NCBI RefSeq assembly: GCF_017599345.1 | Contig: NZ_JAGFVL010000032.1 | Location: forward strand, 124,001 to 188,000 | Reading direction: 5' to 3' | DNA: 64,000 nt | Source: Gracilibacillus suaedae | GTDB lineage: Bacteria > Bacillota > Bacilli > Bacillales > Amphibacillaceae | In this document: in pieces, positions 33,647 to 51,066 of the stretch | How positions within the stretch are numbered: position 1 is the first letter of the stretch | Layout of the letters: every line of letters starts with the position of its first letter | The notes under the pieces: generated by a model | Told to the model about the DNA's origin: nothing | Database searches by the model: none | What the model saw: only the letters and a program-made list of their open reading frames with translations | Position numbers and translations under genes: made by a program

Positions 33647-33665
33647 AGATAATGGGAATTGTTAA

Positions 33666-33832
33666 GTTGCCAGAAAAGTAGCGGAAGTTGCCAGTAAAAT
33701 CAAAAAGTTGCCAGAAAAGTAGGGGAAGTTGTCAGTAAAATCAAAAAAGTTGCCAGAAAAGTAGCGGAAGTTGCCAGTAAAATCAAAAAAGTTGCCAGAA
33801 AAGTAGCGGAAGTTGCCAGTAAAACCTAGTAA
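33666..33832 (+). repeat. Tandem array A: eight 20-21-bp GTTGCCAG units
   Basis: GTTGCCAG (once GTTGTCAG) starts at 33666, 33687, 33707, 33728, 33749, 33770, 33791 and 33812, a period of 21 bases (one unit is 20). Units alternate between an A form (GTTGCCAGAAAAGTAGCGGA) and a T form (GTTGCCAGTAAAATCAAAAA), so the true unit is a 42-bp dimer repeated four times. A frame stays open on the minus strand only because 21 is a multiple of three. The rest of 33592-33985 is otherwise empty. Confidence 0.9.
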
Positions 33833-33985
33833 ATAGCCAAGCAACTTCCCGCATTTTCAAAAGGTACTACTTCATAACAAATATAAAACCGCCAGTCATG
33901 TTGCGCCAATTCTTGGTAGCTCACTATTCCTTTAACTCGAGCGAATGCAATTTTTAGATTTTAACATATACAGGGAGGAAGAATA

Positions 33986-34855
33986 ATGGAAAATGTAATT
34001 GAATTACGGAATGTCAATAAATCTTTTAAAGGTTTTCAATTAAAGGATTTTTCTATGACGGTTAAGAAAGGATTTGTAACCGGTTTTATCGGTGGAAATG
34101 GCGTTGGGAAATCAACAACCATTAATCTGATTATGAATTTGCTACAGCCTGATAGTGGAACGATTTCTATATTTGGATTGAACTATAAGCAACATGAGAA
34201 AGAGATTAAACAGCGAATTGGTTTTGTTTTCGATGATAATATCTTTTATGAGCATTTAACACTGACAGAAATGAGACGAATTATAAAACGTGCCTATTCC
34301 AATTGGGATGACAATCTATTTCGGTATTATGTCGAACAATTTGAACTACCATTAAATAAAAAGATTAAAACATTTTCAAAAGGAATGATGATGAAAGCTT
34401 CGTTAACAATAGCTTTATCCCATCATGCAGAGTTAATTGTTATGGATGAACCTACATCTGGCCTGGACCCAGTTTTTCGCAGAGAGTTTTTAGATGTATT
34501 GCATCGTTTAATGGAAAATGAGGATAAGACGATCTTTTTCTCCACTCATATAACAACAGACTTAGACAGTATTGCAGACTACATTATATTTATTGATAAA
34601 GGTCAACATATATTTACGAAAGAATCGACGCAAATTGAAGAAGAGTATGCGATCGTTAAAGGGGAAACGGAACTGTTAGATGCTGACACGAAAAAGGAAT
34701 TTATCTCCATTCGCAAGTCAAATCACGGTTTTGAGGCGTTAACAGCAAATAAAAGTCGTATAGAAGAAATGTTTGGTCAAATGGTTTTGATTGAAAAACC
34801 ATCCATTGAAGATATTATGTTCTATACGAAAAAAGGAGCGGAATGGCATGTGTAA
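33986..34855 (+). CDS. ABC transporter ATP-binding protein (YtrB/CcmA type)
   Basis: ATPase subunit of an ABC exporter, 289 aa. Walker A is GGNGVGKST (about 37-45), signature FSKGMMMKAS (about 131-140), Walker B LIVMDEPTSGLDP (about 152-164), H-loop in STHITTD. The C-terminal 80 residues are a separate regulatory extension. ATG follows AGGGAGGA. Its stop overlaps the start of the membrane subunit by eight bases. Confidence 0.93.
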   Translation: MENVIELRNVNKSFKGFQLKDFSMTVKKGFVTGFIGGNGVGKSTTINLIMNLLQPDSGTISIFGLNYKQHEKEIKQRIGFVFDDNIFYEHLTLTEMRRIIKRAYSNWDDNLFRYYVEQFELPLNKKIKTFSKGMMMKASLTIALSHHAELIVMDEPTSGLDPVFRREFLDVLHRLMENEDKTIFFSTHITTDLDSIADYIIFIDKGQHIFTKESTQIEEEYAIVKGETELLDADTKKEFISIRKSNHGFEALTANKSRIEEMFGQMVLIEKPSIEDIMFYTKKGAEWHV

Positions 34856-35456
34856 TTTGATCTGGAAGGATATAGTACTACAAAAGAAAGGCTCATTGAT
34901 ATTGTTACCTGCTTTATTTGGGTATATAGTATATAATCCATCATACATTTGGATAGGGTTCGTATTTAGTGTCGTTATTATTCTGGATGTTTTCGCAAAG
35001 GATGAGGATTCGGCCGTCAACAAGTTGCTTAATTCTCTTCCATATACACGGAGAGAAGTTGTCAGTTCTAAATATATAGGAGCTATTATTTTTACCTTGT
35101 TAGTAGTTTTTGCCATGTTTATAGGAGGTTTGCTGTTTCATAGAGAAGTGCCTGCTTGGAAAGAAACTATGTTAATGGTTAGTCTATCTATGATAGCTAT
35201 CTCATTCATCCTTCCATTTTTATATAAATTCAAAACGCAATATATCTTTAGAGCTTTTCTATTTTTATTTGTTGTTTATATGATAGTAATTAATACTTTT
35301 ATTAAAAATTTGAATGATATTTTAAGAGAATTTGTACAAACAATCTTAACTTTGCAAGATCCTTCTGTGTTTTTGATGATGATATTGTCAATTATTGTGC
35401 TATATAGCTTTTCATGGCTGCTTTCGATTCGAATTTATAGAAATAAAGTATTTTAA
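34848..35456 (+). CDS. ABC-2-type permease subunit
   Basis: Membrane subunit of 202 aa with about six hydrophobic helices; contains LNSLPYTRREVVSSKYIG, typical of ABC-2 permeases next to YtrB-like ATPases. ATG at 34848 follows AAAAGGAG and overlaps the ATPase stop, implying coupled translation. Substrate unknown; transporters of this class often handle antibiotics or peptides at the envelope. Confidence 0.85.
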   Translation: MCNLIWKDIVLQKKGSLILLPALFGYIVYNPSYIWIGFVFSVVIILDVFAKDEDSAVNKLLNSLPYTRREVVSSKYIGAIIFTLLVVFAMFIGGLLFHREVPAWKETMLMVSLSMIAISFILPFLYKFKTQYIFRAFLFLFVVYMIVINTFIKNLNDILREFVQTILTLQDPSVFLMMILSIIVLYSFSWLLSIRIYRNKVF

Positions 35457-35473
35457 AATTGGAGGTATGGTAG

Positions 35474-36316
35474 ATGAGGTGGGGCGTTCTATTATTAGCT
35501 GGATGGGCAACGATAACTGGTGGGCTGTTTCTAGGTTCTCTGACAGGAACTGTTGTTGCTGAACAGTTTGGTTTTACTAGAAATTATCGGTTATTGACGC
35601 AAGGTCTTGTCATGACCGGGGTTGTTGTCCCAATTATTTTATGTTTGTATCAATACTTCTACCGAATAACAGGTGTTAAGCCGAAGAAAGTAATTTATAA
35701 TTGGAAGAAAGCTTATCACTTTTTTACTGGGATGTTGCTAGCTATTGGCTTAGCTTTTTTGGGTATTTTCCTTGCGACCTCACTTGGTTGGATCTCGATA
35801 GAAAAATGGCATACCCCCGATCAATGGCTGATTGCATTACTCGTTAATATGGGTATTGCCTTTTTATATGAGGCATTACCAGAAGAACTCGCTTTGCGTG
35901 GATTTGTGTTTGATATTTTACGTTATCGTTTTGCCACTTGGGCTGCCGTTCTATTACAAACACTGTTATTTCTTTCCGTTCCATTAACCACAACACTGTT
36001 ACAAGTGCTGATTGGGCTTTCACCTGGGAATAGTATTAATGTTGGATATATTATGCTGATCCTTTTGTTCGGTATTTGTTTGCAGTTACTGCGTCTCTGG
36101 ACTGGAAGTTTGTGGACAGCAATCGGTTTTCATTTAGCATACTTAGAGATCACAAGATTTGTCGTTAATAATAATTATGGTCCGTCGATTTTAAGTTATC
36201 ATGAATCATTTCCTGGACTAGGTGTTTTATTTATATCGCTCGGAATGATAGTAGTTGGTGGTATTGTAGTCTCTCTTTTTATTTTAGGTATGAAGCGTTT
36301 GTTGCAAAAAAATTAG
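35474..36316 (+). CDS. CPBP-family intramembrane metalloprotease
   Basis: Membrane protein of 280 aa with about eight helices. CPBP (Abi) motif 1 is PEELALRGFVFDILR (Glu-Glu and Arg) and motif 2 includes AIGFHLAYLEI (His). Bacterial members act in bacteriocin self-immunity or regulated proteolysis. ATG is eight bases behind GGAGG. It is 17 bases behind the permease, so an ATPase-permease-protease operon is likely, possibly an immunity module (inference). Confidence 0.88.
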   Translation: MRWGVLLLAGWATITGGLFLGSLTGTVVAEQFGFTRNYRLLTQGLVMTGVVVPIILCLYQYFYRITGVKPKKVIYNWKKAYHFFTGMLLAIGLAFLGIFLATSLGWISIEKWHTPDQWLIALLVNMGIAFLYEALPEELALRGFVFDILRYRFATWAAVLLQTLLFLSVPLTTTLLQVLIGLSPGNSINVGYIMLILLFGICLQLLRLWTGSLWTAIGFHLAYLEITRFVVNNNYGPSILSYHESFPGLGVLFISLGMIVVGGIVVSLFILGMKRLLQKN

Positions 36317-36340
36317 ACCTATGTGTATTATCATTACAAT

Positions 36341-36382
36341 AAAAAGGGGCCGATCATCGTTATTTTATGATCGGCCTCTTAT
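36341..36382 (+). terminator. Terminator after the ABC-CPBP operon
   Basis: AGGGGCCGATCAT and ATGATCGGCCTCTT pair across a short T-rich loop; the A-run before it allows use in both directions. Nothing else is recognisable up to 36594. Confidence 0.75.
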
Positions 36383-36594
36383 TGGTTAGATCATATTTAT
36401 AATTCTATCCGTTTTGAGCTTGTTCAAGTTGATAAGCTCACCTCATCGCTTTAATTGTCTTTCCTTTAAATGTTGCCTGATCAACAATCTCCCGCTTATC
36501 TTTTTTAGTAATTTGCTAATAAAGGTGTAGTTATTTTCGTATCGATGACCATTGTACTTAGAGTTATTGTAAGTTGAGAAAAGAGGAATAAGCG

Positions 36595-37473
36595 GTGAAT
36601 AAAAGATTATTTGCATTATTAATTGTTATAACAACTAGTTTAATGGGATCATCATTTGCAATTGGGAAGATCGGATTGCAATATGTATCTCCTTTACTGT
36701 TAGTAGGACTTCGCTTTACATTGGCAGGTATTCTGATGGGGATAACGGTTAGCATTTTCAAGCGGAGGCACCCGGTTACTTTTCGTGAATGGTTAAGAAT
36801 TATACTTATCGGGTTATTTCAGACTACAGGAGTTATGGGGCTTATTTTTATAAGTATGAGGACGATAACAGCTGGAGAAACATCCATTTTAACGTTCACA
36901 AATCCTTTACTTGTCATTATATTAGGGACATTGTTTTTAGGGACGAAATATCGTTGGAGTCAATGGCTAGGTGTTATCGTGGGTTTTTTAGGTGTTTTTA
37001 TTACGTTAGGTGCTGATTTGGAGATTCAACAAATTGGTACTGTTCTAGGTTTCTTAAGTGCAGTTTGTTGGGCGATTGCGACTTTGCTGATGAATAGATG
37101 GGGAAAAAGTCTTGATGTGTGGGTAGTAACAGCCTATCAAATGTTAGCAGGTGGAGTGTTGCTTTTATTTGCAAGTGCCTTCTTTGAAAAAGTGGAACTT
37201 GTGATTACAGCAAACTCGGTTTTCATCGTACTATGGCTAGCCATTATGGCATCGATAGTGCAATTTGCTGTATGGTTTTTCTTATTGCAGAATGAGAATC
37301 CGGGAAAAGTAAGTTCATTTTTATTCCTTGCTCCATTATTTGGCGTTTTATTTGGTTGGATTTTAGTAGGTGAAAAATTACATATCTCTACATTAATTGG
37401 GGGAGCTGTTATATTAGTTGGTATTTATCTTGTGAACAGACCACAACGTATTAAGCTTTTGTATAGTAATTAA
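36595..37473 (+). CDS. EamA/DMT-family transporter
   Basis: Drug/metabolite transporter of 292 aa with ten predicted helices in two EamA repeats (about 1-135 and 145-285). It begins MNKRLFALLIVITTSLMGSSF and contains GLRFTLAGILMG. Members export amino acids, nucleosides or other metabolites. GTG start at 36595 is seven bases behind AGAGGA. It lies before two nucleoside hydrolases, with 300 empty bases between them. Confidence 0.85.
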   Translation: MNKRLFALLIVITTSLMGSSFAIGKIGLQYVSPLLLVGLRFTLAGILMGITVSIFKRRHPVTFREWLRIILIGLFQTTGVMGLIFISMRTITAGETSILTFTNPLLVIILGTLFLGTKYRWSQWLGVIVGFLGVFITLGADLEIQQIGTVLGFLSAVCWAIATLLMNRWGKSLDVWVVTAYQMLAGGVLLLFASAFFEKVELVITANSVFIVLWLAIMASIVQFAVWFFLLQNENPGKVSSFLFLAPLFGVLFGWILVGEKLHISTLIGGAVILVGIYLVNRPQRIKLLYSN

Positions 37474-37779
37474 ATGATAGATATCCCTGAAAAGTTTCTT
37501 CGCATTTCAAAGAACGTGATTACATTCAGTTAATAATCACTTGTTAGATAGCTATGAACACAGCTATATTAGCATTATGAAATATGTTACAATACTTTGG
37601 TGGTATATGGTAGCATCATCGTATGGACACTAAAGTTTGCAGTTAACTTTCTGGCATCACGGAACAGTATATCAACCTCTGTTTCTCTAACATTAATAAC
37701 AGATACAAAAACATATTAATGGGTACGGTTGAGCTGTTTCATTTTAGCACTTATAAAAAATATAAAGGAGCGAGTACAA
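37474..37779. other. Gene-free spacer before the nucleoside hydrolase pair
   Basis: No gene, strong hairpin or known riboswitch recognised. An in-frame start at 37729 lies upstream of the ribosome site AAAGGAG (37764-37770) and is not used. Confidence 0.4.
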
Positions 37780-38718
37780 ATGGCGAAGAAGGTTTATTTA
37801 AATCATGATGGCGGTGTGGATGATTTAGTCTCTCTTTATCTATTATTACAGATGGAGGATGTCGATTTGCTCGGGGTTAGTGTTATTCCGGCAGATTGCT
37901 TTTTAGAACCAGCTGTTTATGCAAGTCGTAAAATTATAGACCGCTTTAGTAACAAAGAAATTGAAGTAGCAGCTTCAACATCGCGAGGTAAAAATCCATT
38001 CCCGAAAGATTGGCGCATGCATGCGTTTTTTGTTGACGCCTTACCAATTTTAAATGAATTTGGAGCGCCCAAAACAAAAGTAGCAGCCCTTCCTGCCCAC
38101 AGGCATATGATTGAAACTGTACGTAACAGTACAGAGCCAGTTACCCTTCTGTTTATTGGTCCTCTTACTGATTTAGCACGTGCACTTGAAGAAGCACCGG
38201 ATATTGAAGATAAAATTGAAAAGCTCGTATGGATGGGCGGTACGTTTTTAGAAAATGGAAACGTCGAAGAACCAGAACATGATGGTACCGCCGAATGGAA
38301 TGCTTTTTGGGATCCAGAAGCTGCGAAAACAGTGTGGGATAGTGGTATTACCATAGATTTAGTCGCACTGGAAAGTACCAACATGGTGCCATTAACGGTA
38401 GATGTACGAGATAAGTGGGCAGCAGAGCGCAAAGACATTGGTATTGACTTCCTTGGGCAATGTTATGCAATGGTACCACCACTTGTACATTTCCAAACAA
38501 ATTCTACATATTTCTTATGGGATGTATTGTCCACAGCGTCGGTTGGTAAGCCTGATTTGGTGAAAAAGAAAGAAGTAAAAAGTATCGTTCATTCAGATGG
38601 GGCAAGCCAAGGAAAAACAGAATTATCTGATGCAGGACGAAGTGTCCACCTTGTTTATGAAGTGGATCGCGATGCTTTTTTTGATTATATAACAGACTTA
38701 GCTAGACAGGAGAAATGA
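37780..38718 (+). CDS. Nucleoside hydrolase (IunH/Rih family), variant motif
   Basis: Would split ribonucleosides into base and ribose in salvage; 312 aa. The N-terminal metal motif reads NHDGGVDDLVS instead of the usual DTDPGxDD, with Asn at the first Asp position. WMGGTFLENGN and the later AEWNAFWDPEAA match the family. ATG at 37780 follows AAAGGAG. Its stop is ten bases before the next hydrolase gene. Loss of the first Asp may mark a subfamily with different specificity. Confidence 0.85.
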   Translation: MAKKVYLNHDGGVDDLVSLYLLLQMEDVDLLGVSVIPADCFLEPAVYASRKIIDRFSNKEIEVAASTSRGKNPFPKDWRMHAFFVDALPILNEFGAPKTKVAALPAHRHMIETVRNSTEPVTLLFIGPLTDLARALEEAPDIEDKIEKLVWMGGTFLENGNVEEPEHDGTAEWNAFWDPEAAKTVWDSGITIDLVALESTNMVPLTVDVRDKWAAERKDIGIDFLGQCYAMVPPLVHFQTNSTYFLWDVLSTASVGKPDLVKKKEVKSIVHSDGASQGKTELSDAGRSVHLVYEVDRDAFFDYITDLARQEK

Positions 38719-38728
38719 GGTGAATAGG

Positions 38729-39676
38729 ATGAGACGAGTCATTATTGATACAGACACAGCAGGTGATGACACGATTGCTTTGCTAACAGCATTACACCAT
38801 TTTAAAGTAGAAGGTGTTACGATCACAGGAGGTAATGTTGATTTCGATCAAGAGGTAGAAAATGCTCTGTACACGATAGAAGTAGCCAAGCCTGCGTATG
38901 ATGTCCCTGTTTATAAAGGCTATGAAGGACCTATCCTTGCCATAGGTAATGAAAGTCACAGAACGGTTGAGGATGTTCATGGTGAGGATGGAATGGGCGG
39001 CTCATTTTTCCCAAAAGCAAAACAACGACCAGAATATGGACATGCAGTCGATTTTATTATTGACAAAGTAAAGGAATACCCTGGGGAAGTTTCATTTCTG
39101 GCGATTGCCCCGTTAACCAATATTGCCATGGCAATCAAAAAGGATCCGTCAATCGTCCGGGATATTCCTCATATTTACATTATGGGTGGAACCAATAATA
39201 CATTAGGGAACATTACACCAGCAGCTGAGTATAATTTTTATGTCGATCCTGAAGCAGCAAGACTTGTGCTTCATTCAGGTATTCCGATTACGATGGTTGG
39301 TTGGGATATGTGTACACAATATTCGATTATGGATAATGCAGATCATGAAGAGATAAAGTCACTTAACACAGCTGGTTCTCAATTCTTTATTGATATTAAC
39401 CAAGTTGTAATGAAATTTAATAAAAAAGTACATCGACTTAATGGGACTACACACCCTGACACATTACTTGTAGCTGTTGCAGCTGATGAATCTATCATGA
39501 CCAAGTCACATGAGTACTATGTTGATATTGAAACAAAGGGTGAATTAACTAGAGGATATAGCCTTGTTGATGTGAATAACAGACTGGAGCAGAAGCCAAA
39601 TGTCCTTGTTTGTGAAGCAATAGATCGTGACAAATTTAAAGCAGATTTGTTGCAAGTATTAACAGCCATTAAATAA
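38729..39676 (+). CDS. Nucleoside hydrolase (IunH/Rih family)
   Basis: Nucleoside hydrolase of 315 aa with the canonical motif DTDTAGDDTIALL at residues 7-19. YIMGGTNNTLGNITPAAEYNFYVDPEAA is the conserved core around the metal and ribose (Asn/Glu/Asp), and the last helix carries HPDTLLVAVA. ATG at 38729 follows GAGGTG, which overlaps the upstream stop. It is the second of a two-gene operon, probably using substrates different from its neighbour. Confidence 0.9.
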   Translation: MRRVIIDTDTAGDDTIALLTALHHFKVEGVTITGGNVDFDQEVENALYTIEVAKPAYDVPVYKGYEGPILAIGNESHRTVEDVHGEDGMGGSFFPKAKQRPEYGHAVDFIIDKVKEYPGEVSFLAIAPLTNIAMAIKKDPSIVRDIPHIYIMGGTNNTLGNITPAAEYNFYVDPEAARLVLHSGIPITMVGWDMCTQYSIMDNADHEEIKSLNTAGSQFFIDINQVVMKFNKKVHRLNGTTHPDTLLVAVAADESIMTKSHEYYVDIETKGELTRGYSLVDVNNRLEQKPNVLVCEAIDRDKFKADLLQVLTAIK

Positions 39677-39695
39677 AGTGAGTCTATGATCAGTG
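39677..39695 (-). repeat. Dispersed intergenic repeat, copy R5 (inverted, 3' part only)
   Basis: GTGAGTCTATGATCAGTG is the complement of CACTGATCATAGACTCAC, matching the end of R2 with one change. It starts right after a stop codon, like R1 after its gene. A weak hairpin (AAACCG and CGGTTTTT, near 39706-39735) follows. Confidence 0.55.
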
Positions 39696-39774
39696 CGGTA
39701 CTTCCAAACCGTAAAGTTATTTTAACCGGTTTTTGCTTCTTTGTTAACATGTATAAATGATGTTAGAACAATGC

Positions 39775-40356: not shown

Positions 40357-40473
40357 GTGATAAAGGCAAAAAATAAAACTGTATTAAAAGTTCCAATTTA
40401 CATCAAGAAATACATAATAAAAAAATCTTTGGAAGCATGTTACAAGGAGGAAAGACATGAAAAACGTATTTAA
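40357..40473 (+). CDS. Possible 38-aa basic leader peptide before the pectinase
   Basis: GTG at 40357 begins a frame of 38 codons (MIKAKNKTVLKVPIYIKK and on), lysine-rich, ending 17 bases inside the pectinase gene. The GTG is embedded in AAGGAGGTGAT, a perfect complement of the 16S tail, so it could not use that site itself; GTG is the only candidate start nearby. Either a coupled leader or a stand-by ribosome site is possible. Weak as a gene, notable as a signal. Confidence 0.2.
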   Translation: MIKAKNKTVLKVPIYIKKYIIKKSLEACYKEERHEKRI

Positions 40474-43400
40474 GGTATTATTAAGTTTCATTTTATTGCT
40501 CTCATTTATACAGCATGATGTTCTTTCAACAGTAACAGCAACAGAAACTAAAGAAAGCCCACCCTCTCAACCAATCGCATTAACGGCTGAGCCGCATGAC
40601 AGTCAGCAGGTTGAGTTAAATTGGATTCCAGGAGTAGGAAAAGATATATTGTTTGTTGGTACAGGTAATCTAGCAGATGAAATGACAATGGACCATTTTG
40701 AATCACTTGGATTCTCAATCACTTTTATAGAGGATAAAGAAGTAAGTGGAGAAGATGCGGCATCCTATGATTTAGTATTTGTTGGTGAATCATCGAACTC
40801 ATCTAATATAGGTAATAAATTTATCGATTCTTCTGTTCCTATTGTTTATGCAGAGCCATTTGCACTTGATGATGTTTACTTGTCTGAAACCACTTCTGGA
40901 TCATTTGGAAGCTATGAAGATCAAGACTCACTAGAAATCCAAGCTAGTGATCATCCTTTAGCTGCTGGATTAAGTGGCTCCATCAAAGTGTATGATCAAG
41001 CAGGAAAAATTAATTACGGTACCCCTGGTGAAGAAGCGATCACTATTGCTACAGCTTCAGATGATGATAGCAAAGCAACCATCTTTGCCTATGAAGAAGG
41101 TGCAGAAAATGTAAATGGAGATCCTGTCCCTGCTCGCCAAGTAGCCACGTTTTTATTCGCTGGTCAAGAAGAATATATGACGGAAGAAGGCTGGCAATTA
41201 CTTGATCAATCCGTTATGTGGGCGTTAGGTATGGATGATAAGGATTATAATGAAACCTATACGATAAAGCGAAGTACTGAAGACGGAGGACCATATGAAG
41301 TTGTTGCAACAGATGTAACAGAAACCAGTTATATCGACAGCGGTTTAACGAATCATACGACGTATTATTATGTGATTTCTGCTGTAAATGCTGAAGGTGA
41401 AAGTGAAAATTCAGAACAAATCAGTGTTACACCAATTGAAATTCCAGATCCACCACCAGCACCGACAGATTTGACGGCTATTGAAAGGAATAGTCAGGTT
41501 GATTTAAGTTGGAATGCCGGCGACCGCAAACGGATCTTATTTGTTGGGACAGGTATTCCAGCTGATGAGAAAACAATCCATCACTTAGAGTCACTAGGTT
41601 TTGACGTATCATTTATCAAAGATAATGAAGTTACTGGTGAAGATGCACTTTCCTATGACTTAGTGTTTGTTGGTGAATCCTCAGGGTCTGCCTATATCGG
41701 CAAAAAATTCATAGATTCACCAGTTCCTGTTGTATATGCTGAGCCTTATGCATTAGATGATGTTTATTTAAGTGAAGTAGATTCAGGGTTATTTGGAAGC
41801 TATGAGAATCAGGATTCTATTTCTATTGATGATAGTGATCATCCATTATCTGCAGGATTAAGTGATACAATTAAAGTTTATAATGAGGCAGGAAAAATTA
41901 ATTATGGTACTCCTAGTGAAGAGGCAATTACCATTGCTACCACTGCAGATGATGATAGTAAAGCAACCATTTTTGCTTATGAAAAAGGAGCCAAAAACGT
42001 AATTGGAGATCCAGTCCCTGCTCGTCAAGTAGCGACATTTTTATTCGCAGGACAAGAAGATGTGATGACGGAAGAAGGTTGGAAGTTGATTGATGCCTCT
42101 GTAAAATGGGCACTCAGCATCGAGGATGAGTACAGTTACAAAGAAACCTATCATGTAAAACGTAGTACAACAAAAGAAGGTCCTTATGAAACAATCGCTA
42201 AAAACATGGAAAAAACGACATTCCGTGATACAGGCCTAGAAAACGGCACACGCTATTATTATGTTATCTCAGCGGAAAACATTGGTGGAGAAGGTAATCC
42301 TTCAGATGAAGTAAGTGCTTTACCTGTAGCACCATTACAAGTTCCAACTGGTTTGTCCGTTAGTAATGGAAATGAAGAGGTAACAATTAGTTGGGAACCA
42401 GTCAATGAGGCCACCACTTACCAGGTTCTACGTAGTAAAGAAAAGGGAATAGGCTATGAAGTGGTTGAAAGTGATGTGACAGAAACGGAATACACAGATA
42501 CTGGCTTAACAAATGGTGATAGGTATTATTATGTTGTATCTGCTAAGAACGAAGCATCTCAAAGTGCTAACTCCGATCCTATAAGCGCAGTTGCTGTTCC
42601 AGAGAATGGAGCTCCCGCTATTCCAATAGGATTAGAAGCAACTGCTGGTAATGGACAGGTAGTCTTAACTTGGCCATCTGTTAGCGGAGCCGATACCTAT
42701 AACATAAAGCGTGGTTCATTTGATAGTGGTGAATATGAAGTCATTGCTACGGATGTGCCGCTGACAAGTTATCAAGATGCAGAGGTAACGAATGGTGAGA
42801 CCTATGATTATGTTGTTTCCGCTGTCAATGAGAATGGCGAAAGTTTCGATTCTGAACCGTTAGCTGTTACTCCTGCAAAAGTGGCAGTTGTAGCAAAAGA
42901 GGGGGGAGACTATAAAACGGTGCAAGAAGCGATTGATGCCGCACCAGATAATAGTTCTAAACGTCATGTTATCTACATTAAAGATGGCGAGTATCGCGAG
43001 AAACTGACGATACCTGAGAGTAAAACAAACCTTAGTTTTGTAGGGGAAAGTAAAGAAGGCACTGTCCTTGTGTATGATGATAATGCCAACACAATTGGAC
43101 CTGATGGTAATCCATTAGGCACATCAAAGAGTTCAAGCATTTTCATTTATGCTGATGATTTTATTGCAAAAAATTTAACCATCCAAAATGATTCAGGTCA
43201 AGGTACAGGACAAGCGGTAGCTGCTTATGTTGCAGGCGATCGGGCATACTTTGAGAACGTCATGTTTTTAGGTTACCAAGATACTTTGTATACCCATTCT
43301 GGAAACCAGTATTATAAAGATTGTTATATTGAAGGTGATGTGGATTTCATCTTTGGTGGTGCGACAGCGGTTTTTGATAACTGCCAAATTCACAGTAAGC

Positions 43401-45682
43401 GTGATGGGAGTATGTTAACAGCTGCAAGTACACCGCAAGAGAATCCGTTTGGCTATGTCTTTTTAAATTCTAAAATTACCTCAGATGAAGGAATAGAAGA
43501 CGTGCGCTTTGGTAGACCTTGGCGTCCATACGCAGCAGTTTCCTTTATCAATACAGAAATGGATGACTCGATTGCTCCTGATGGTTGGGATAACTGGGGC
43601 GACCAGGCGAACGAGGAAACAGCAAGATATTCCGAATACAATAGTACAGGTCCAGGGGCAAATCCACAAATGCGTGATTCTTGGACAAAGCAATTAACAC
43701 CGGAAGAAGTAAATCAATATACGGTTCAAAATGTGTTGAAAAATTCAGATGGCTGGAATCCAACTAGAGTTGGAATTATCCCATTTTCAGCTTTATCAGC
43801 ACCAGTTATATCACTTGATCAGCAAGAAGCAATTGTAAATAAGTCCAGTTTTACTATTTCGGGTAAAGTAGACAAAGAAGCTACTGTTTATGTAAATGAA
43901 AAGGAAATTGAGATAGAAGAAGACTTAAGTTTCAGTGTAACAGTTGAACTAGAGCCAGGACTCAATACCTTTACTTTGGAGGCGGTTGATTCAGATGGTA
44001 ATCAGGCGGTACCTACTATCTTAAAAATTGAATACGATCACGAGAAGCCTGTTATAACAGTTGATGATATTGAAGGAGAGGAAAAAGGGAATCACTATAA
44101 CGTGATCTATAATCCTTTTCCGATTTCAGTTAAGCTTAATGAAGCAGGAAGTGTAAAGATTAATGGTGAGGAAGTAACACTATCGGATGATTTTACATTT
44201 AGCTCAGAGATAGAACTTGAACCTGGATTAAATAAAGTCAATATTTCGGCTGTCGATCTTGCTGGAAATGAATCCGATCCTGTAACGCTCAAGCTTGTTC
44301 CAAAAGGGAGTTCCGTTCCGAGCGGCCCCATAAAAATCTTGCAAAGTGAAGTTATAAGCTCCAATACGGTGGAAATTACATTTAATAGTAAGCTTAAAGA
44401 ATTTGATGCTAATGATATTGAATTGCAGTCAGCAACAAACGATTGGGCCGATCTTAACCCTGGTCTTCAACCAAACATAACTGTAGAAAATATATCAACA
44501 AGAGTTAATAAACAAAAACAAACAGTAGCAGTGTTTGAAACGAAGGAGTCATTTAATGAAGATGGAACGATAAATAAACCAATAAATGAAGATCCACATA
44601 ACATTCCATATTTAAATGCCTCTTATTACAGCGGTGATAGAGCTAATGATATAGAGCAAGCTGATGCATTATTATCTTGGCAAATGAACCATGGTGGATG
44701 GTATAAAAACATGGAAGATAAATATAATCGTCCGTGGGATGGTAAAGAGCCTAAATCAGATATGTATCATCCTGAACATGGGGAATTAGGTGTTATCGAT
44801 AATAATGCAACGACAAACGAAATTCTTTTTTTAGCTCTTATGTATAACGAAACTGGTGATGCCCGCTACAAAGAGTCTGTTTTAAAAGGAATTAACTATT
44901 TACTTGAAGCTCAATATGATACCGGTGGCTGGCCACAAGTATATCCTGCAAGGGGCAACTATTCTGATTATGCAACGTTTAATGATAATGCGATGATTCG
45001 TGTTATGAATGTGTTAACCATGGTGTCACAAAAGAAGTATCCTTTTAATACAGATATCGTTACGAAAGAACTTGCAGCACAGATAGACGTGTCTCTAAAT
45101 CTTGGCGTAGATTACATTTTAAAATCTCAAATTTCAGTAGACGGTGAATTAACGGCATGGTGTGCACAACATGATCCATTAACGTATGAACCGAAAGGAG
45201 CTCGTTCCTATGAACATCCATCTATTTCAGGTTCTGAGTCAGTAGGAATTGTGCAGTACCTTATGTCTTTACCTAACCCTTCAGAAGAAGTGCAGGCCGC
45301 AATTGATGGAGCTTTATCCTGGTTTGAAGAGGCTAAAATTGAAGGAATGAAATACGTATCAGCTGATCCTGAAGGTCAATATTTCTACTCTGATCCAACA
45401 ACCAATACTTGGTACCGCTTCTATGAAATTGGCACGAATCGCCCAATTTTCTCTGGAAGAGATGGTATTATCAAGCATACAATTCAAGAAATTGAACAGG
45501 AACGAAGAGATGGTTACCGTTGGGCAGGAGATTGGCCACAAAAATTACTGGACATAGCGAATTCAACAGGTTATTACGAAAACCGATCCTATGTAAAAGT
45601 AGTTGGTGAAAATTCACAAAATGCTGCAGGAGAAACATTCAAAAAAGGGAGTTTGCACAGAGTCGAAGCTACTAAGCAATAA
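40457..45682 (+). CDS. Secreted bifunctional pectinase: FnIII - CE8 pectinesterase - PL10 pectate lyase
   Basis: Protein of 1741 aa with a signal peptide (about 1-28). FnIII-like domains at about 38-326 and 334-623 are each split after strand B (VELNW, VDLSW) by an inserted domain of about 200 aa (DILFVGTGNLADE and RILFVGTGIPADE). Two ordinary FnIII domains follow (about 629-806). CE8 pectinesterase lies at about 808-1105, with GYQDTLYTHSG, GDVDFIFGGAT and RFGRPWRPYA. Two Ig-like repeats come next (about 1115-1290), then PL10 pectate lyase (about 1370-1715; HGGWYKNM, GGWPQVYPARGNYS, ARSYEHPSISG with the probable catalytic Arg). It would strip methyl groups from pectin and cut the product. ATG follows AAGGAGG. 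Confidence 0.9.
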   Translation: MKNVFKVLLSFILLLSFIQHDVLSTVTATETKESPPSQPIALTAEPHDSQQVELNWIPGVGKDILFVGTGNLADEMTMDHFESLGFSITFIEDKEVSGEDAASYDLVFVGESSNSSNIGNKFIDSSVPIVYAEPFALDDVYLSETTSGSFGSYEDQDSLEIQASDHPLAAGLSGSIKVYDQAGKINYGTPGEEAITIATASDDDSKATIFAYEEGAENVNGDPVPARQVATFLFAGQEEYMTEEGWQLLDQSVMWALGMDDKDYNETYTIKRSTEDGGPYEVVATDVTETSYIDSGLTNHTTYYYVISAVNAEGESENSEQISVTPIEIPDPPPAPTDLTAIERNSQVDLSWNAGDRKRILFVGTGIPADEKTIHHLESLGFDVSFIKDNEVTGEDALSYDLVFVGESSGSAYIGKKFIDSPVPVVYAEPYALDDVYLSEVDSGLFGSYENQDSISIDDSDHPLSAGLSDTIKVYNEAGKINYGTPSEEAITIATTADDDSKATIFAYEKGAKNVIGDPVPARQVATFLFAGQEDVMTEEGWKLIDASVKWALSIEDEYSYKETYHVKRSTTKEGPYETIAKNMEKTTFRDTGLENGTRYYYVISAENIGGEGNPSDEVSALPVAPLQVPTGLSVSNGNEEVTISWEPVNEATTYQVLRSKEKGIGYEVVESDVTETEYTDTGLTNGDRYYYVVSAKNEASQSANSDPISAVAVPENGAPAIPIGLEATAGNGQVVLTWPSVSGADTYNIKRGSFDSGEYEVIATDVPLTSYQDAEVTNGETYDYVVSAVNENGESFDSEPLAVTPAKVAVVAKEGGDYKTVQEAIDAAPDNSSKRHVIYIKDGEYREKLTIPESKTNLSFVGESKEGTVLVYDDNANTIGPDGNPLGTSKSSSIFIYADDFIAKNLTIQNDSGQGTGQAVAAYVAGDRAYFENVMFLGYQDTLYTHSGNQYYKDCYIEGDVDFIFGGATAVFDNCQIHSKRDGSMLTAASTPQENPFGYVFLNSKITSDEGIEDVRFGRPWRPYAAVSFINTEMDDSIAPDGWDNWGDQANEETARYSEYNSTGPGANPQMRDSWTKQLTPEEVNQYTVQNVLKNSDGWNPTRVGIIPFSALSAPVISLDQQEAIVNKSSFTISGKVDKEATVYVNEKEIEIEEDLSFSVTVELEPGLNTFTLEAVDSDGNQAVPTILKIEYDHEKPVITVDDIEGEEKGNHYNVIYNPFPISVKLNEAGSVKINGEEVTLSDDFTFSSEIELEPGLNKVNISAVDLAGNESDPVTLKLVPKGSSVPSGPIKILQSEVISSNTVEITFNSKLKEFDANDIELQSATNDWADLNPGLQPNITVENISTRVNKQKQTVAVFETKESFNEDGTINKPINEDPHNIPYLNASYYSGDRANDIEQADALLSWQMNHGGWYKNMEDKYNRPWDGKEPKSDMYHPEHGELGVIDNNATTNEILFLALMYNETGDARYKESVLKGINYLLEAQYDTGGWPQVYPARGNYSDYATFNDNAMIRVMNVLTMVSQKKYPFNTDIVTKELAAQIDVSLNLGVDYILKSQISVDGELTAWCAQHDPLTYEPKGARSYEHPSISGSESVGIVQYLMSLPNPSEEVQAAIDGALSWFEEAKIEGMKYVSADPEGQYFYSDPTTNTWYRFYEIGTNRPIFSGRDGIIKHTIQEIEQERRDGYRWAGDWPQKLLDIANSTGYYENRSYVKVVGENSQNAAGETFKKGSLHRVEATKQ

Positions 45683-45716
45683 CCATAATATTACCCAGTT
45701 ATTTATCTAACGCTTT

Positions 45717-45752
45717 ATATAGCCTTAGCCCAAAACGGGCTAAGGCTATATT
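45717..45752 (+). terminator. Hairpin after the pectinase gene
   Basis: TATAGCCTTAGCCC and GGGCTAAGGCTATA, a perfect 14-bp stem with a 5-base loop; only a short T-stretch follows. Confidence 0.65.
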
Positions 45753-45872
45753 AAATTGTGGATGCATTCTAGACTTTAAGTCCCGAGCGATGAATAACAG
45801 TCACTTGATAGTCCAGACCTCTTATTAAAAACGAGGAGCTTTCAACAGTGTTCTTGGTTTTACTAAATATCT

Positions 45873-46145
45873 TTATTGTTCATAAAGAAAAGCGTCGTTA
45901 GTTTCTTCATCAGCTATTGTTTGTACAGGATTTTGTACTGTGTTTGCTGGCTGCGTATTATTTTGGTTTTGATTTGTTAGTATATTTTGTACTGGTTGCG
46001 TAAACTGCTGTACTTGTGGATTGTTTAGTGCGTTGTTAATGGTTTCAGGTAATCGCTGAAAAGTTCCGTTTTGTACACCTCTCGTTATACCATAAATGGC
46101 TGCACCAGCGGCCCCCACTGCTAATACTCTGTTCATTAAACCCAT
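45873..46145 (-). CDS. Small Asn/Gln-rich protein of unknown function
   Basis: A 90-aa protein with a hydrophobic Ala/Gly-rich N-terminus (VLAVGAAGAAIYGITRGVQ) and an Asn/Gln/Pro-rich remainder (NQNQNNTQPANTVQNP). It resembles small Bacillus spore-coat or envelope proteins annotated only as hypothetical. ATG at 46145 is eight bases behind AAAGGA. Single gene. Confidence 0.6.
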   Translation of the reverse strand: MGLMNRVLAVGAAGAAIYGITRGVQNGTFQRLPETINNALNNPQVQQFTQPVQNILTNQNQNNTQPANTVQNPVQTIADEETNDAFLYEQ

Positions 46146-46581
46146 ATCATCATTCCTTTAATAAGATTTGGAACAGTTTTATTTTTATTTAAATTTTAAT
46201 TTTTATGCGGTAATTTAATTTCCAATTGTTAATCTTAAAGTTGCGTTATAAGTACAGATAAATAAGTTTTAGAAGATGTAATAATATTGAAGAAATAGGG
46301 GAATATAATACATAGTATATCTCTATTATTGTAAAAAGTCTTACTATCGGCCATGTTATGTGCTTTCAATTTACTTTAAATCAGTTTCATCGTACATACC
46401 TCGCTAATTATCCCCCACAGCTTTTTAGGGCGCATTTAATATTAATCAATGACCTTTTTGCGAAAATATAGTTATTCGTGAAACCTTCATGTAATAATAT
46501 CCGTACATAAGATTACAAGAAAAGAATATTAAACTGTAACAAAGTGAGAAATTCACATATGAAAAAAAGGAGGAAATACAT
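46146..46581. other. Gene-free spacer before sppA
   Basis: AT-rich; only the ribosome site AGGAGGAAA before sppA is recognisable. Confidence 0.4.
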
Positions 46582-47583
46582 ATGAACCAAAAACGCTGGA
46601 TTGCTTTGGTTGTTGCTGTGGGGCTATTTTTGGCTTCGATAGGCTTTCAGTTCTTCTCAAGCATGGCAACTGCTGATTTTGAAAACATGCTTAATTTTCA
46701 AGATCCGGACGATAACTTTGGTGAAAAGGTAATTGAGAGAGGCTCAGGCAACAATAAAATAGCAGTTCTCCATTTAGATGGGGTAATTCAAGACACGACA
46801 CCAAGCACGTTGATTAATACGAATTCCTATAACCATCAACGCTTTTTAGAGATGCTAGACAAAGCTGGTGAAGATAATCGTGTGAACGGGATTATCTTAC
46901 GAGTGAATACACCTGGTGGTGGTGTCGTGGAAAGTGCAGAAATTCATGATAAGATCTTGGAAATTCAAGAGCAATATGAAAAACCAGTCTATGTATCAAT
47001 GGGCAATACCGCTGCATCAGGTGGCTATTATATTTCAGCGCCAGCTGATAAAATTATTGCACATAATGCGACACTTACTGGTTCGATCGGTGTGATTATG
47101 GAAAGCTTTAATTTTGCTGAATTTGCTGATGAACAAGGTATTGATTTTAATACGATCAAAAGTGGTGAATATAAGGATATCATGTCAATGTCTCGTGAAA
47201 TGACAGATGATGAACGCGAGCTATTACAAACGATGATCGATGATATGTATGCTGAGTTTGTTCAAGTGATCGTGGATGGCAGAGGTATGTCAGAGGACCG
47301 TGTTCGTGAATTAGGAGATGGTCGTGTATACACAGGAGCACAAGCACAAGAAGTTGAGCTAGTTGATGAACTTGGTTCGTTAGATGATACGATCGAAATC
47401 ATGAAAGAAGATCATGATCTGGCAAATGCTCAAGTGATTGAATACGAACCTAGTCTTAATTTTAATCAATGGTTTGGTGGAACTGTTCAAAGCATGTTCG
47501 GATCGGAATCTGATTTAATTGGTATTAAAGATTTACTGCGAGAAAATAATGCGCCACGTGCCATGTATCTCTATTCACAATAA
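46582..47583 (+). CDS. sppA: Signal peptide peptidase SppA
   Basis: Membrane-anchored serine protease of 333 aa that digests left-over signal peptides outside the membrane. N-terminal anchor at about 6-27, then the S49 domain: VNTPGGGVVESAEI, catalytic Ser in NTAASGGYYIS and catalytic Lys in KSGEYKDIMS. It is followed after 12 bases by an RDD protein, the same order as sppA-yteJ of B. subtilis. Confidence 0.93.
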   Translation: MNQKRWIALVVAVGLFLASIGFQFFSSMATADFENMLNFQDPDDNFGEKVIERGSGNNKIAVLHLDGVIQDTTPSTLINTNSYNHQRFLEMLDKAGEDNRVNGIILRVNTPGGGVVESAEIHDKILEIQEQYEKPVYVSMGNTAASGGYYISAPADKIIAHNATLTGSIGVIMESFNFAEFADEQGIDFNTIKSGEYKDIMSMSREMTDDERELLQTMIDDMYAEFVQVIVDGRGMSEDRVRELGDGRVYTGAQAQEVELVDELGSLDDTIEIMKEDHDLANAQVIEYEPSLNFNQWFGGTVQSMFGSESDLIGIKDLLRENNAPRAMYLYSQ

Positions 47584-47595
47584 GGAGGTGTCGGA

Positions 47596-48060
47596 ATGAC
47601 TGAAGAACATATGAATTATCCTTCTACGCAATCAACGAAAATTCGATATGCAGGATTTTGGATGCGATTCTGGGCATACCTAGTTGATTTACTTATTGTT
47701 TTCAGTATTAACGGCATCTTACTTGTGCCATTTAAATTTATCAACGATGGTTTTACGATGGATATCGGATTTTGGACCGTTACAGGGATTATCAGCTCGA
47801 TTGTTTTCTATCTCTATTTTTTGTTGATGACCAAGTTCTACAACCAGACATTAGGTAAAATGATTTTTGGTATAAGAGTCATTCGTGAGGATAGCCAATC
47901 GCTCAGGTGGAGTGATCTAATCTTTCGCGAAATAATCGGAAGATTCATTCACCGTGTGTTTTTTATCTGCGTCTTTTTGTACCTGTTTGTCGCATTCGGT
48001 ACACAGAAGCAAGGAATTCATGACATGATTGGGAATACACGGGTTGTGTTTGAGGAATAA
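47596..48060 (+). CDS. yteJ: RDD-family membrane protein, YteJ-like
   Basis: A 154-aa protein with an RDD domain: YAGFWMRFWAYLVDLLIVF begins the first helix, and FYNQTLGKMIFGIRVI and KQGIHDMIGNTRVV are typical. It has about three or four helices. ATG follows AAGGAGGTG. It pairs with sppA as in B. subtilis, where YteJ is linked to SppA function and lantibiotic resistance. Confidence 0.88.
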   Translation: MTEEHMNYPSTQSTKIRYAGFWMRFWAYLVDLLIVFSINGILLVPFKFINDGFTMDIGFWTVTGIISSIVFYLYFLLMTKFYNQTLGKMIFGIRVIREDSQSLRWSDLIFREIIGRFIHRVFFICVFLYLFVAFGTQKQGIHDMIGNTRVVFEE

Positions 48061-48070
48061 TCCAGATATT

Positions 48071-48124
48071 AAAAGTGCCTGTTTACTTATAGCGATTTAG
48101 TCGTAATAAGTAACAGGCACTTTC
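48071..48124 (+). terminator. Bidirectional terminator between yteJ and brnQ
   Basis: AAAAGTGCCTGTTTACTTAT pairs with ATAAGTAACAGGCACTTT; both genes converge on it. Confidence 0.8.
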
Positions 48125-48137
48125 TGTTAAATGATAT

Positions 48138-49454
48138 TTAAGCTTCTTTTCTTATGAAACTTAAAATCAATCCTAGTATTCCACCGACAATTGCAGGAAC
48201 AATCCATCCTAGTCCTACCGTATATAAAGGAAGTACAGCTGTAAGGAGTTCGTTCACTGTTTGTATCTTTATACCAGCTGCATTCAAGCCATCAAACAAA
48301 GCTACAATAAATGTGAAGAAAATACTAACTTGATATACTTCTCTTTTTCCTTTGAAAAGCGGGTTTAAGAATGTTAAAACCATTAAGCACATCGCCAATG
48401 GATAAAGCATGGATAATACAGGTATAGAAAATTCTATAATAGTAGTTAAACCGAAATTGGAAACAACTGCACTAAACAATGTGAAAATAATTGCCCATAC
48501 TTTATAGGATATATTTGGCACAATTTCATTAAAGTAGGATGCGCAGGACGTAATTAGTCCAATACTTGTCGTTAAACATGCAGCCACAACAATAATTCCA
48601 AGAATGATCTTCCCGTATGATCCGAAATAGAATGCAGATGATCCCGCTAAAATCGCTCCACCATTATCCATATAGCCAATCTCTGTGGTACTAATTGCCC
48701 CAAGATAAGCAAGGGAAGAGTATACAATAGCTAAAAGTGCCGCAGCAATTAGCGCAGCTTTCATCGTAGAAACTAAGAGTTCCTTTTTAGATAGGGCGCC
48801 TTGGTCTTTCATGGCATTAATAATGATAATCCCAAATACGAATGCTGCTAGTACATCCATGGTTAAATAACCTTCTTGAAAGCCTTTGAAGAAACTGTTT
48901 GTCATGTAAGCATCGGTGGGTTCCTGAATCGTACCAATCGGATTAAGTAAGGCAGCTAAGATTAATACTGCGATAACAATCAACAAGAGCGGTGTTAGTA
49001 CTTTACCAATAATATCTACAAGCTTTTTTGCCTGAAATGAAAAGTATAATGATAAACCAAAGAAAATAATGGTAAAGCTAGGCAACGCCCAATTATTTGA
49101 TTGATTCTCTAGAAACGGCATAATCCCGATTTCATAAGCAACAGTATTAGTTCTTGGCAATGCGAACAATGGTCCAATTGTTAAATACAATGCAACGGTA
49201 AAAATAAGACCGTACAAAGGATGAATCTGACTTGCGAGTGATTGTAAATTACTTTTACCCGAAATGCCTAATGCTAATACAGCAAGTACAGGCAACCCAA
49301 CTCCAGTTATGATGAATCCTATGTTGGCAGAAAGTAAATTATCACCAGCAGCTTGACCTAATTGTGCTGGAAAGATTAAATTTCCCGCGCCGAAAAATAG
49401 GGCAAACAACATAAACCCTACTGTAACGACACTTAATGAACTTCGTGATGACAT
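48138..49454 (-). CDS. brnQ: Branched-chain amino acid carrier BrnQ
   Basis: Sodium-coupled importer of Leu, Ile and Val; 438 aa and twelve predicted helices. The family opening GFMLFALFFGAGNLIFPA is clear, as is PLFALPRTNTVAYEIG. ATG follows an ACGGAGGT site. No T-box leader is recognisable in the 250 bases upstream, so control by CodY or another factor is possible but not shown. Confidence 0.92.
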   Translation of the reverse strand: MSSRSSLSVVTVGFMLFALFFGAGNLIFPAQLGQAAGDNLLSANIGFIITGVGLPVLAVLALGISGKSNLQSLASQIHPLYGLIFTVALYLTIGPLFALPRTNTVAYEIGIMPFLENQSNNWALPSFTIIFFGLSLYFSFQAKKLVDIIGKVLTPLLLIVIAVLILAALLNPIGTIQEPTDAYMTNSFFKGFQEGYLTMDVLAAFVFGIIIINAMKDQGALSKKELLVSTMKAALIAAALLAIVYSSLAYLGAISTTEIGYMDNGGAILAGSSAFYFGSYGKIILGIIVVAACLTTSIGLITSCASYFNEIVPNISYKVWAIIFTLFSAVVSNFGLTTIIEFSIPVLSMLYPLAMCLMVLTFLNPLFKGKREVYQVSIFFTFIVALFDGLNAAGIKIQTVNELLTAVLPLYTVGLGWIVPAIVGGILGLILSFIRKEA

Positions 49455-49817
49455 ATTAAACCTCCGTTATTTAAATCAATAGCTGATAAATGCTAAATAT
49501 CAGATTATTTCGGCGACATGGTTCGTCAAAATATTTACAGAATATCATGGAATTATCTGAAAAGCAATTTATTTTTAATAGCTGTTCTTCAGTATAGAAT
49601 AACCGTTCTCGAAATCGGCATTAGATAAGCTATACTAAGAAACAGATTTTATTTTCCAACTTCGATCTCACCCTGTGAACAACATCGATACTAGACTCCC
49701 GATTCGCTAGCTGTTGCTCGTATTTCCTTTAAAGAAATTCTAAGGAAAGTGAAGGTGAATTTTGGAATATTATGTTAAGATGATAGTGTCAATGTAAACT
49801 GTTAATGGAGGCTAAGT
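49455..49817. other. Spacer between divergent brnQ and small membrane proteins
   Basis: No gene or known leader recognised. TTAAGATGATAGTG near 49771 could be part of the promoter for 49818, without a clear -35. Confidence 0.35.
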
Positions 49818-50000
49818 ATGATCACGATGGTGAGTATTGTTTTATATCTGATAATTCTTTTTTGTATATCTACACTATTATTCTTTTCTTTGACTTTTGT
49901 ATTAGGAACGCAAGACCCTATGATTGCATACCTTTTATCAATAATTGCGACTCATTTGGTATTAAATACTTTAGGTGGATTGAGGAAAAGTGAATTTTAG
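49818..50000 (+). CDS. Small membrane protein
   Basis: A 60-aa protein, hydrophobic at residues 4-30 and 36-52, giving two membrane helices and a basic tail (GLRKSEF). ATG is six bases behind GGAGG. No family recognised; the good ribosome site and composition support a real gene. Confidence 0.55.
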   Translation: MITMVSIVLYLIILFCISTLLFFSLTFVLGTQDPMIAYLLSIIATHLVLNTLGGLRKSEF

Positions 50001-50083
50001 ATTTTGATAGTGAGTTGCAAGTAGTTCTTATTGTAGAGGGCTCTTTTATCTATCATTCTACAAACAAGGGAGTGAAGGAAAAA

Positions 50084-50260
50084 ATGAAATATTTAAGAAA
50101 TTTATATATGGTCATGATGGCCATCGTGCTTGTTAATTTAACAAATGTATATTTGTTAAATGGGGATTATTCAGGCATTGCGAGTTGGATTATAGTCATG
50201 CTCTTTCTTTTTGGAACAATCTATTACTGTGTTGCAAGGTTTTATCTAGCTGAGAAATAA
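50084..50260 (+). CDS. Small membrane protein
   Basis: A 58-aa protein (begins MKYLRNLYMVMMAIVLVN) with two membrane helices separated by a short LLNGDYSG turn. ATG at 50084 follows GAAGGAA; upstream frame extension lacks a site. It lies 80 bases behind another two-helix protein, and a terminator-like hairpin follows. Function unknown. Confidence 0.55.
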   Translation: MKYLRNLYMVMMAIVLVNLTNVYLLNGDYSGIASWIIVMLFLFGTIYYCVARFYLAEK

Positions 50261-50282
50261 AGGTTCGATTAGTTGTATAATC

Positions 50283-50319
50283 CTACCCCATTTTCCTACA
50301 TTGGTGATGGTTTTTTTGT
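50283..50319 (+). terminator. Terminator after the small membrane proteins
   Basis: CCCCATTTTCCTACATTGG then TGATGGTTTTTTT. Nearly the same hairpin occurs at 50897-50930 after the TPP riboswitch. Confidence 0.55.
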
Positions 50320-50522
50320 TCTGCCATTGTTATTAGTACACGGACAATTTACTATCAACTCCCACCAACATTAAGTTATGAAAGTAGATATAATGATTCA
50401 GTAAATACCATATTTATGATTCCTTTTTATCAGTGTTGATAAGTGGAATTGTGCCAAAAGTAATGATAGTATAGTCATAAAAATTTAATCGATATTAAGT
50501 TGGTATCTACAGGGGGATAATT

Positions 50523-50653
50523 ATGCAAAAGCGGTGGTTAGAAAGGTTGAGGTTTAAAAATATCAAAATTGAAAGAAAATACGGACTTATTTTAAGTATT
50601 TAGCAAAGTTAGCGGAACAATTAAATAGTCTAGTACGACAATTTAAATTATGA
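50523..50653 (+). pseudogene. Chemoreceptor (MCP) remnant: both ends, no middle
   Basis: ATG at 50523 opens 26 codons (begins MQKRWLERLRFKNIKIERKY) that look like the N-terminal cytoplasmic tail and first helix start of a methyl-accepting chemotaxis protein. From 50606, in another frame, come 15 codons, KLAEQLNSLVRQFKL and a stop, like the last residues of such receptors. An internal deletion of roughly 1.5 kb or more is inferred. Confidence 0.55.
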
Positions 50654-50772
50654 ATTACGTATGGGAAACCCTTGATTTTCATAAAAAGTTTGATGAGTCC
50701 ATGTCTAATCGTGTTTGCATATCCAATTATTTGTTAGTATACTAAAAATGGAAACTAAATAATTTAATCATT

Positions 50773-50858
50773 CGACTAGGGGAGCATGTAGATGCTGAGA
50801 GAGAAATTCGACCCTTTGAACCTGATCTAGTTAACACTAGCGTAGGGAAGTGGAATTG
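50773..50858 (+). promoter_or_regulatory. TPP riboswitch (THI box)
   Basis: Conserved core in order: ACTAGGGGAGC, ATGCTGAGAG, GACCCTTTGAACCTGATCT, AGTTAACACTAGCGTAGGGA. It binds thiamine pyrophosphate. A terminator follows at 50897-50930, so excess TPP should stop transcription before tenA-ylmB. Confidence 0.95.
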
Positions 50859-50896
50859 GTAGTTATATAGATTGTTTGATTAGTCCGTATATTACT

Positions 50897-50930
50897 AACC
50901 CATCTTCCTTCATTGGTGATGGGTTTTTAT
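50897..50930 (+). terminator. TPP-controlled terminator
   Basis: ACCCATC (50898-50904) pairs with GATGGGT (50918-50924), then TTTTT, about 40 bases after the riboswitch aptamer. Confidence 0.75.
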
Positions 50931-50949
50931 TATGCAATCACAAATTTTT

Positions 50950-51066
50950 CTGGCAACTTTCACGAGTTATCTGGCAACTCTGATGGATTTACTGGCAACT
51001 TTCACGAGTTATCTGGCAACTCTGGCTGATTTACTGGCAACTTTCATGACTTCTCTGGCAACTTCT
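50950..51066 (+). repeat. Tandem array B: six exact 21-bp CTGGCAAC units
   Basis: CTGGCAAC starts at 50950, 50971, 50992, 51013, 51034 and 51055, each exactly 21 bases apart. Inner units alternate between TTAT and TTTA before the core, as in a 42-bp dimer. CTGGCAAC is the complement of the GTTGCCAG core of array A at 33666-33832, with the same period. It lies in the transcribed leader between the riboswitch terminator and tenA. Confidence 0.9.

Follow-up and report, generated by a model that had tools for sequence, protein, structure and literature searches.

The stretch of DNA considered here, which we call the window, comprises 64,000 nucleotides of the Gracilibacillus suaedae genome (contig NZ_JAGFVL010000032.1, positions 124,001 to 188,000) and contains two arrays of short tandem repeats, A and B, built on the same core, GTTGCCAG. 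Both arrays were found to be intergenic, as an earlier note on this DNA had claimed; array B sits within the leader of tenA, between the terminator of a thiamine pyrophosphate (TPP) riboswitch and the gene (Table 1). The cores of array A start at 33666, 33687, 33707, 33728, 33749, 33770, 33791 and 33812, giving intervals of 21, 20, 21, 21, 21, 21 and 21 bp; seven of its units carry exact GTTGCCAG and the one at 33728 carries GTTGTCAG. Array B consists of six minus-strand units with cores at 50950-51062 and every interval 21 bp. The core occurs 14 times in the window, against an expectation of 0.92 and a maximum of 4 in 100 shuffles, and 13 of these copies fall inside the two arrays, which bears out the common core described in the note. 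No special meaning was found in the inverted arrangement of A and B 17 kb apart, since array A is sense to the gene that precedes it, array B runs antisense to tenA, and the genome contains seven others at different places.

Table 1. Arrays A and B and their surroundings (positions in the window; MFS, major facilitator superfamily; ABC, ATP-binding cassette)
Feature	Position	Strand	Context	Basis
MFS transporter gene	32086..33591	+	3' end precedes array A	Pfam MFS_1, E 1.4e-54
Intrinsic terminator, hairpin and T run	33601..33646	+	between MFS gene and array A	sequence, terminator search
Array A, eight 20-21 bp units, AAGTTGCCAG[A/T]AAA core	33664..33832	+	sense to upstream gene	
ABC transporter ATPase gene	33986..34855	+	downstream of array A	Pfam ABC_tran
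TPP riboswitch aptamer	50768..50865	+		Rfam RF00059, 73.5 bits
Probable TPP riboswitch terminator	50897..50928	+		hairpin and T run read in sequence
Array B, six units, 21-bp period	50946..51064	-	core antisense to tenA; orientation same in congeners	
tenA gene	51093..51776	+	downstream of array B	Pfam TENA_THI-4, E 4.5e-60

Unit structure and divergence

A comparison of 140 units from 29 loci resolved the unit into a constant part of about 15 nt, RRA-GTTGCCAG-WAAA, and 5-6 free bases of filler; since only units with up to 3 mismatches to the core were counted, the conservation of the core is flattered. The 8-base core proposed earlier is thus shared by the arrays, but the conserved part is longer. 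Likewise, the 21-base spacing is the dominant one (94 intervals over the 29 loci), but steps of 20 bp are frequent as well (45 of 140 intervals, one of them in array A), and one interval measured 19 bp. Tandem Repeats Finder (TRF) reported a 42-bp dimer in both A and B, and filler identity in the nine arrays of the source genome was 0.89 between next-but-one units, 0.43 between adjacent units and 0.52 between arrays. These values agree with the 42-bp dimer of alternating units described in the note. The filler mostly differs between arrays, as had been stated, but the filler ATCAAAAA is common to three unlinked arrays of the source genome (array A, L032 and L037).

Orthologous arrays differed in 31/720 core bases (4.3%) and in 143/532 filler bases (26.9%), pooled over 11 comparisons in which some arrays were used twice, so that the core was about 6 times less diverged than the filler. 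A core decaying as fast as its filler in orthologous spacers, the outcome named beforehand as contrary to the note, did not occur: the core and its approximate phase were kept while the filler changed. Slippage may still play a part, and it evidently amplifies the units. At 10.5 bp per turn, the net rotation ranged from 0 to -171 degrees across the 29 GTTGCCAG loci; it came to -137 to -171 degrees over the whole array in 5 of the 25 loci listed, and arrays of pure 20-bp period exist. One strict face of the DNA is therefore not kept over every array, and the proposed binding of a protein along one face appears only partly supported. A sequence-specific binder would be the simplest cause of the kept core and the approximate phase.

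Distribution and constancy of the period

The search for further arrays that the note had proposed was positive in the source genome and in its relatives. The source genome contains nine GTTGCCAG arrays of at least three units and 41 spaced GTTGCCAG pairs, with none in the reversed control, and arrays of up to 14 units were seen among the loci read. Spaced pairs were present in 6/17 genomes of the genus, the source genome included; three spaced cores were detected in 5/159 genomes of the family, all Gracilibacillus, and a stricter pair pattern in 2/398 sampled genomes of the class, both Gracilibacillus. Three arrays with the same core were found in Viridibacillus soli. Judged by eye, an array stands at sdhB in 6/17 genomes and at clpP in 2/17, with one remnant and one unreadable case in addition at the latter site. 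A spread of the core across phyla was considered and rejected: among the matches listed, at least 111 stretches, 7 were from Gracilibacillus and 3 from Viridibacillus soli, and those read from the remainder were GTTGCCA heptamer runs or other repeats. The heptamer runs, which occur in many phyla, contain GTTGCCAG at multiples of 7, but they have a 7-bp period without filler and are unrelated to the arrays. Spread by phages was likewise rejected, two of the three stretches in viral contigs being heptamer runs and one (by eye) another repeat.

A broader skeleton, AAGT-N6-TAAA-N6/7, takes in GTTGCCAG as one of its words, and arrays with different cores but an unchanged period occur in congeners. 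The six central bases vary by lineage, and the words of the source genome include TGCCAG, TGATAG, TGCAAA, GACTGA and GTCCAA. At the 3' end of atpC, TGCAAA arrays are present in G000 (the source genome) and G007, two TGATAG units in G013 and one in G010, and no array was seen by eye in the other 12/16 genomes; one site can thus hold different words in different species. A search for AAGT-N6-TAAA units separated by 6-8 bases, which scores pairs and not arrays, gave matches in 96/397 genomes of the order. At least six matches were obtained in 28/397 genomes from 12 families, and the reversed control never reached six (maximum five); in G688, a single different repeat accounts for some of the matches. 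Reading of 30 skeleton loci, one per genome, gave 12 with at least three units and 18 with two, several of them inside open frames, which indicates that part of the 96 matching genomes are due to chance. The generic pattern TTGCNA was found in 59/159 genomes of the family; single matches were near the control and some genomes had more control matches, and only its rich genomes served as leads.

The constancy of the period was also apparent from a TRF survey of 1.264 Mb of the source genome (score at least 75, at least 2.5 copies, period at least 9). The survey gave 35 intergenic rows, which can overlap, with periods of 20 (4 rows), 21 (12), 40-43 (7), 51 (9) and 18, 28 and 36 (one each). Outside the 51-bp class, 23/26 strong intergenic rows, a palindromic TTCCNNGGAA-like class included, have periods of 20-21 or 40-43; five Markov shuffles yielded no rows at 20-21 and one at 41.

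Several other repeats and features were observed along the way. The 51-bp class occupies some twelve loci in the quarter of the genome that was sampled (e.g. L266:2104-2255, L272:16486-16690, L333:11589-11856, L338:13653-13926, L344:16307-16506, L349:1203-1346 and L359:18680-18904), several of its units having internal inverted ACAAATC/GATTTGT. The TTCCNNGGAA-like cores form another 21-bp class, mostly near gene ends and strongly folding (L275, z -12 in sense), at L268:5336-5569, L275:2561-2730, L332:5396-5658, L363:19418-19552, L365:5481-5558 and L295:4880-5248; this class is reminiscent of the Noc site of B. subtilis. The palindrome TTTCCCGGGAAA, which we take to be Noc-site-like, was seen at L364:15362 and behind atpC in several congeners (L373, L377, L378, L385). 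An interspersed repeat that is longer and GC-rich (CCGCTCCGGC-like as judged by eye) lies behind terminators 3' of sdhB, clpP or atpC at L210, L232, L240, L244, L380 and L381, sites at which other congeners carry arrays. The Viridibacillus soli arrays L063, L104 and L148 have TATACCCC-like motifs nearby on one or both sides, and two tandem S-adenosylmethionine (SAM) riboswitches lie downstream of the clpP array (L033:3221-3517, L174:3239-3535).

Placement and orientation at gene ends

Gene calls were longest open frames, not annotation. By these calls, and except for array B, L343 and L299, the arrays are intergenic and stand at the 3' ends of transcription units; most begin 35-90 bp behind the stop codon, and they often directly follow a terminator. 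In one AraC-family gene the stop codon is itself supplied by the array. Several of the upstream genes (sdhB, fba, atpC, glyA and clpP) look like housekeeping genes. These names were read from the sequence without a database search, as were the other gene names at the loci; the Pfam search covered the window genes only, where it also found a pectinesterase and a pectic acid lyase domain together in one protein of 1741 residues (40457-45682).

The orientation of the arrays was tallied for Gracilibacillus loci between co-directional genes, with orthologues merged, loci sorted by hand and Viridibacillus loci excluded. In this hand-picked list, 18/21 loci were sense to the upstream gene (one-sided binomial p 7e-4). 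Eleven convergent loci were dropped from the test, since either strand gives the same answer, and L299, the strand of which is ambiguous, was counted against the sense rule. The 17 census loci were chosen from 133 merged TRF stretches by a recognisable core, not blindly. Exceptions to the rule were the tenA leader (array B), L299 and the gap between a permease gene and a Gfo/Idh gene (L343, L293), which may lie inside an operon.

The tenA leader was read in 12 of the 16 genomes with a match. Antisense units numbered 6 in G000, 2 in G007, 5 in G013, 1 in G009, 13 in G010 and 3 in G006; the other six genomes had at most 1 antisense unit. Sense units numbered 0-2 throughout, and random pieces contained 0.43 units on average and at most 4. 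The reversal was clear in G000, G013 and G010 only. Because this leader must be transcribed for tenA, the reversal there suggests that, for a passing polymerase, sense units are not neutral.

Possible explanations of the arrays

A core that is constrained at unlinked loci, a mostly free filler and a near-helical spacing together make the pattern expected of tandem protein-binding sites. We infer, tentatively, that the arrays are such sites and act as operon-end insulators. A sequence-specific DNA-binding protein would recognise the unit of about 15 bp (RRAGTTGCCAGWAAA in the TGCCAG family), and neighbouring molecules, set about two helical turns apart, could cooperate. Gains and losses of units would come about by duplication, mostly of 41/42-bp dimers here; the arrays stand behind genes, mostly on the coding strand. 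Their most likely function would be that of a polar, protein-coated stretch that halts RNA polymerase overrunning the gene end.

LytTR-type operators (AgrA and ComE boxes) likewise consist of direct repeats spaced by about two turns, and they share a GTT core with the arrays. Those operators, however, are promoter sites, whereas up to 14 units lie behind genes here, and many of the core words do not fit the LytTR consensus. According to PMC4227749, AgrA binds two direct repeats.

A number of observations weigh against an insulator of this kind. No binding protein is known for the arrays, and none was searched for. At any one site, most congeners lack an array as judged by eye. The orientation bias is weaker in genomes outside the genus, the upstream gene being sense in 8/12 loci of at least three units (three of them Gracilibacillus), and in the tenA leader the counts are near chance in G007 (2 vs 1) and G006 (3 vs 2). 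In the GTGGCCATAAA family, the sense arrays L362 and L293 are each placed between two co-directional genes, and no terminator was seen there; a polar block would not lead one to expect this, so that polarity is offered as a hypothesis only; two other sense arrays (L336, L294) stand before the terminator. A terminator-like hairpin preceded 11/13 loci tested by script and two more by eye (the script was run on all but four of the 17 census loci), and 104/150 control 3' regions had a terminator too; there is thus no clear excess at the arrays, and a terminator rule was dropped. As to the divergence, one orthologous pair (one unit) showed more change in the core than in the filler, another pair showed no change, and the selection of units favours low core divergence.

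It is possible, though somewhat doubtful, that the arrays are instead short functionless satellites, the unit being copied only rarely from one locus to another, through conversion or a mobile mechanism as yet unknown, and then multiplied by slippage where gene ends tolerate it. One complete unit, filler included, is present at several unlinked loci (GTTGCCAGTAAAATCAAAAA in array A, L032 and L037 of the source genome and in L172 of G010) and gives the impression of having been copied from one locus to another. Copy number changes rapidly, array A having 8 units in G000 and 5 in G007 with flanks 92% alike. The absence of arrays from most congeners, some of which have other repeats at the same sites, and the change of the core word at atpC also agree with satellites. 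On the other hand, the keeping of core over filler, the single period for very different cores and the orientation bias would all need a cause, and no shared flank or target duplication was noticed among the 29 loci. Variable-number tandem repeats (VNTRs) and other minisatellites likewise have head-to-tail copies whose number varies between species, but here the core is common to unlinked loci while the filler mostly is not, and one period goes with many cores; nor did all unit positions drift equally, as in a simple minisatellite. The unique spacers of clustered regularly interspaced short palindromic repeats (CRISPR) were not found either, as the filler recurs every second unit and offers just 5-6 free bases.

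Another explanation, unlikely in our view, is that the array DNA is bent or wrapped and so recruits DNA gyrase or a nucleoid protein where transcription units end, as a Gram-positive counterpart of the bacterial interspersed mosaic elements (BIME) made of repetitive extragenic palindromic (REP) sequences. A/T content was phased at half the period in 4/4 TGCCAG arrays (p at most 0.010, compared with units permuted by column) and in 3 of 12 arrays of other kinds, which makes 7/16 overall at p below 0.05. The remaining 9/16 arrays showed no significant phasing, so a general law of A-tract phasing was rejected, and wrapping would call for no identical 15-nt core and no strand preference. In PMC6379681, strong gyrase sites of E. 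coli are described as having G/C variation phased at about 10 bp and as enriched downstream of highly transcribed operons. The arrays are like them in position downstream of operons, several of the genes upstream looking like housekeeping genes, and some of the arrays also in phased base composition, but the arrays share an exact core across loci and show an orientation bias. REP/BIME elements of enterobacteria are alike in being interspersed and intergenic, in their alternating unit types, tandem amplification and position at gene ends; they differ in that the units here are direct and not inverted, strand-oriented, and of a 20/21-bp period. For REPIN and RAYT the comparison follows PMC8049555, and for gyrase PMC6379681.

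An RNA element, in which the sense transcript of the array would fold or bind a protein in 3' ends and read-through RNA, seems more unlikely still. It would suit the strand bias and the arrays that precede a terminator, whereas many arrays follow one. Arrays A and B, for which RNA hairpins had been suggested, folded no better than shuffles (z +1.1 and -0.5 in sense, +2.4 and +1.3 in antisense); being direct repeats without an excess of folding, they also lack the palindromic or hairpin unit of REP/BIME. Two of four GTTGCCAG arrays tested did fold better than shuffles in sense, L033 (z -3.9) and L160 (z -3.7). Over 16 arrays, some of non-GTTGCCAG families included, z was below -2 in 6 in sense and equally in 6 in antisense, so that no common direction emerged, and no Rfam match at the gathering score was obtained over the arrays in the window and 17 loci. 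Repeats coding for short peptides are very improbable: the 21-bp unit keeps the frame, open frames of 60 codons (minus strand) and of 47 codons with an ATG (plus strand) span arrays A and B, respectively, and the AraC-family gene ends in an array-derived stop codon, but the 20-bp intervals shift the frame.

The insulator reading can be widened to a proposal that we regard as speculative and improbable in its full form. In Bacillaceae and related families, strand-oriented and helically spaced 20/21-bp protein arrays of the type AAGT-N6-TAAA would serve as operon-end insulators, with N6 words that differ by lineage and coexist, each with its own protein, site and reader co-evolving, and with a switch of word at atpC. 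No literature on such arrays was found in open-access searches judged by the titles and beginnings of abstracts that were listed, which is weak evidence of novelty. If the arrays are protein-binding, a large bacterial order would have an unrecognised way of marking gene ends, the natural variants in copy number would offer material for a test, and the constant period of the arrays despite their varying sequence would be explained.

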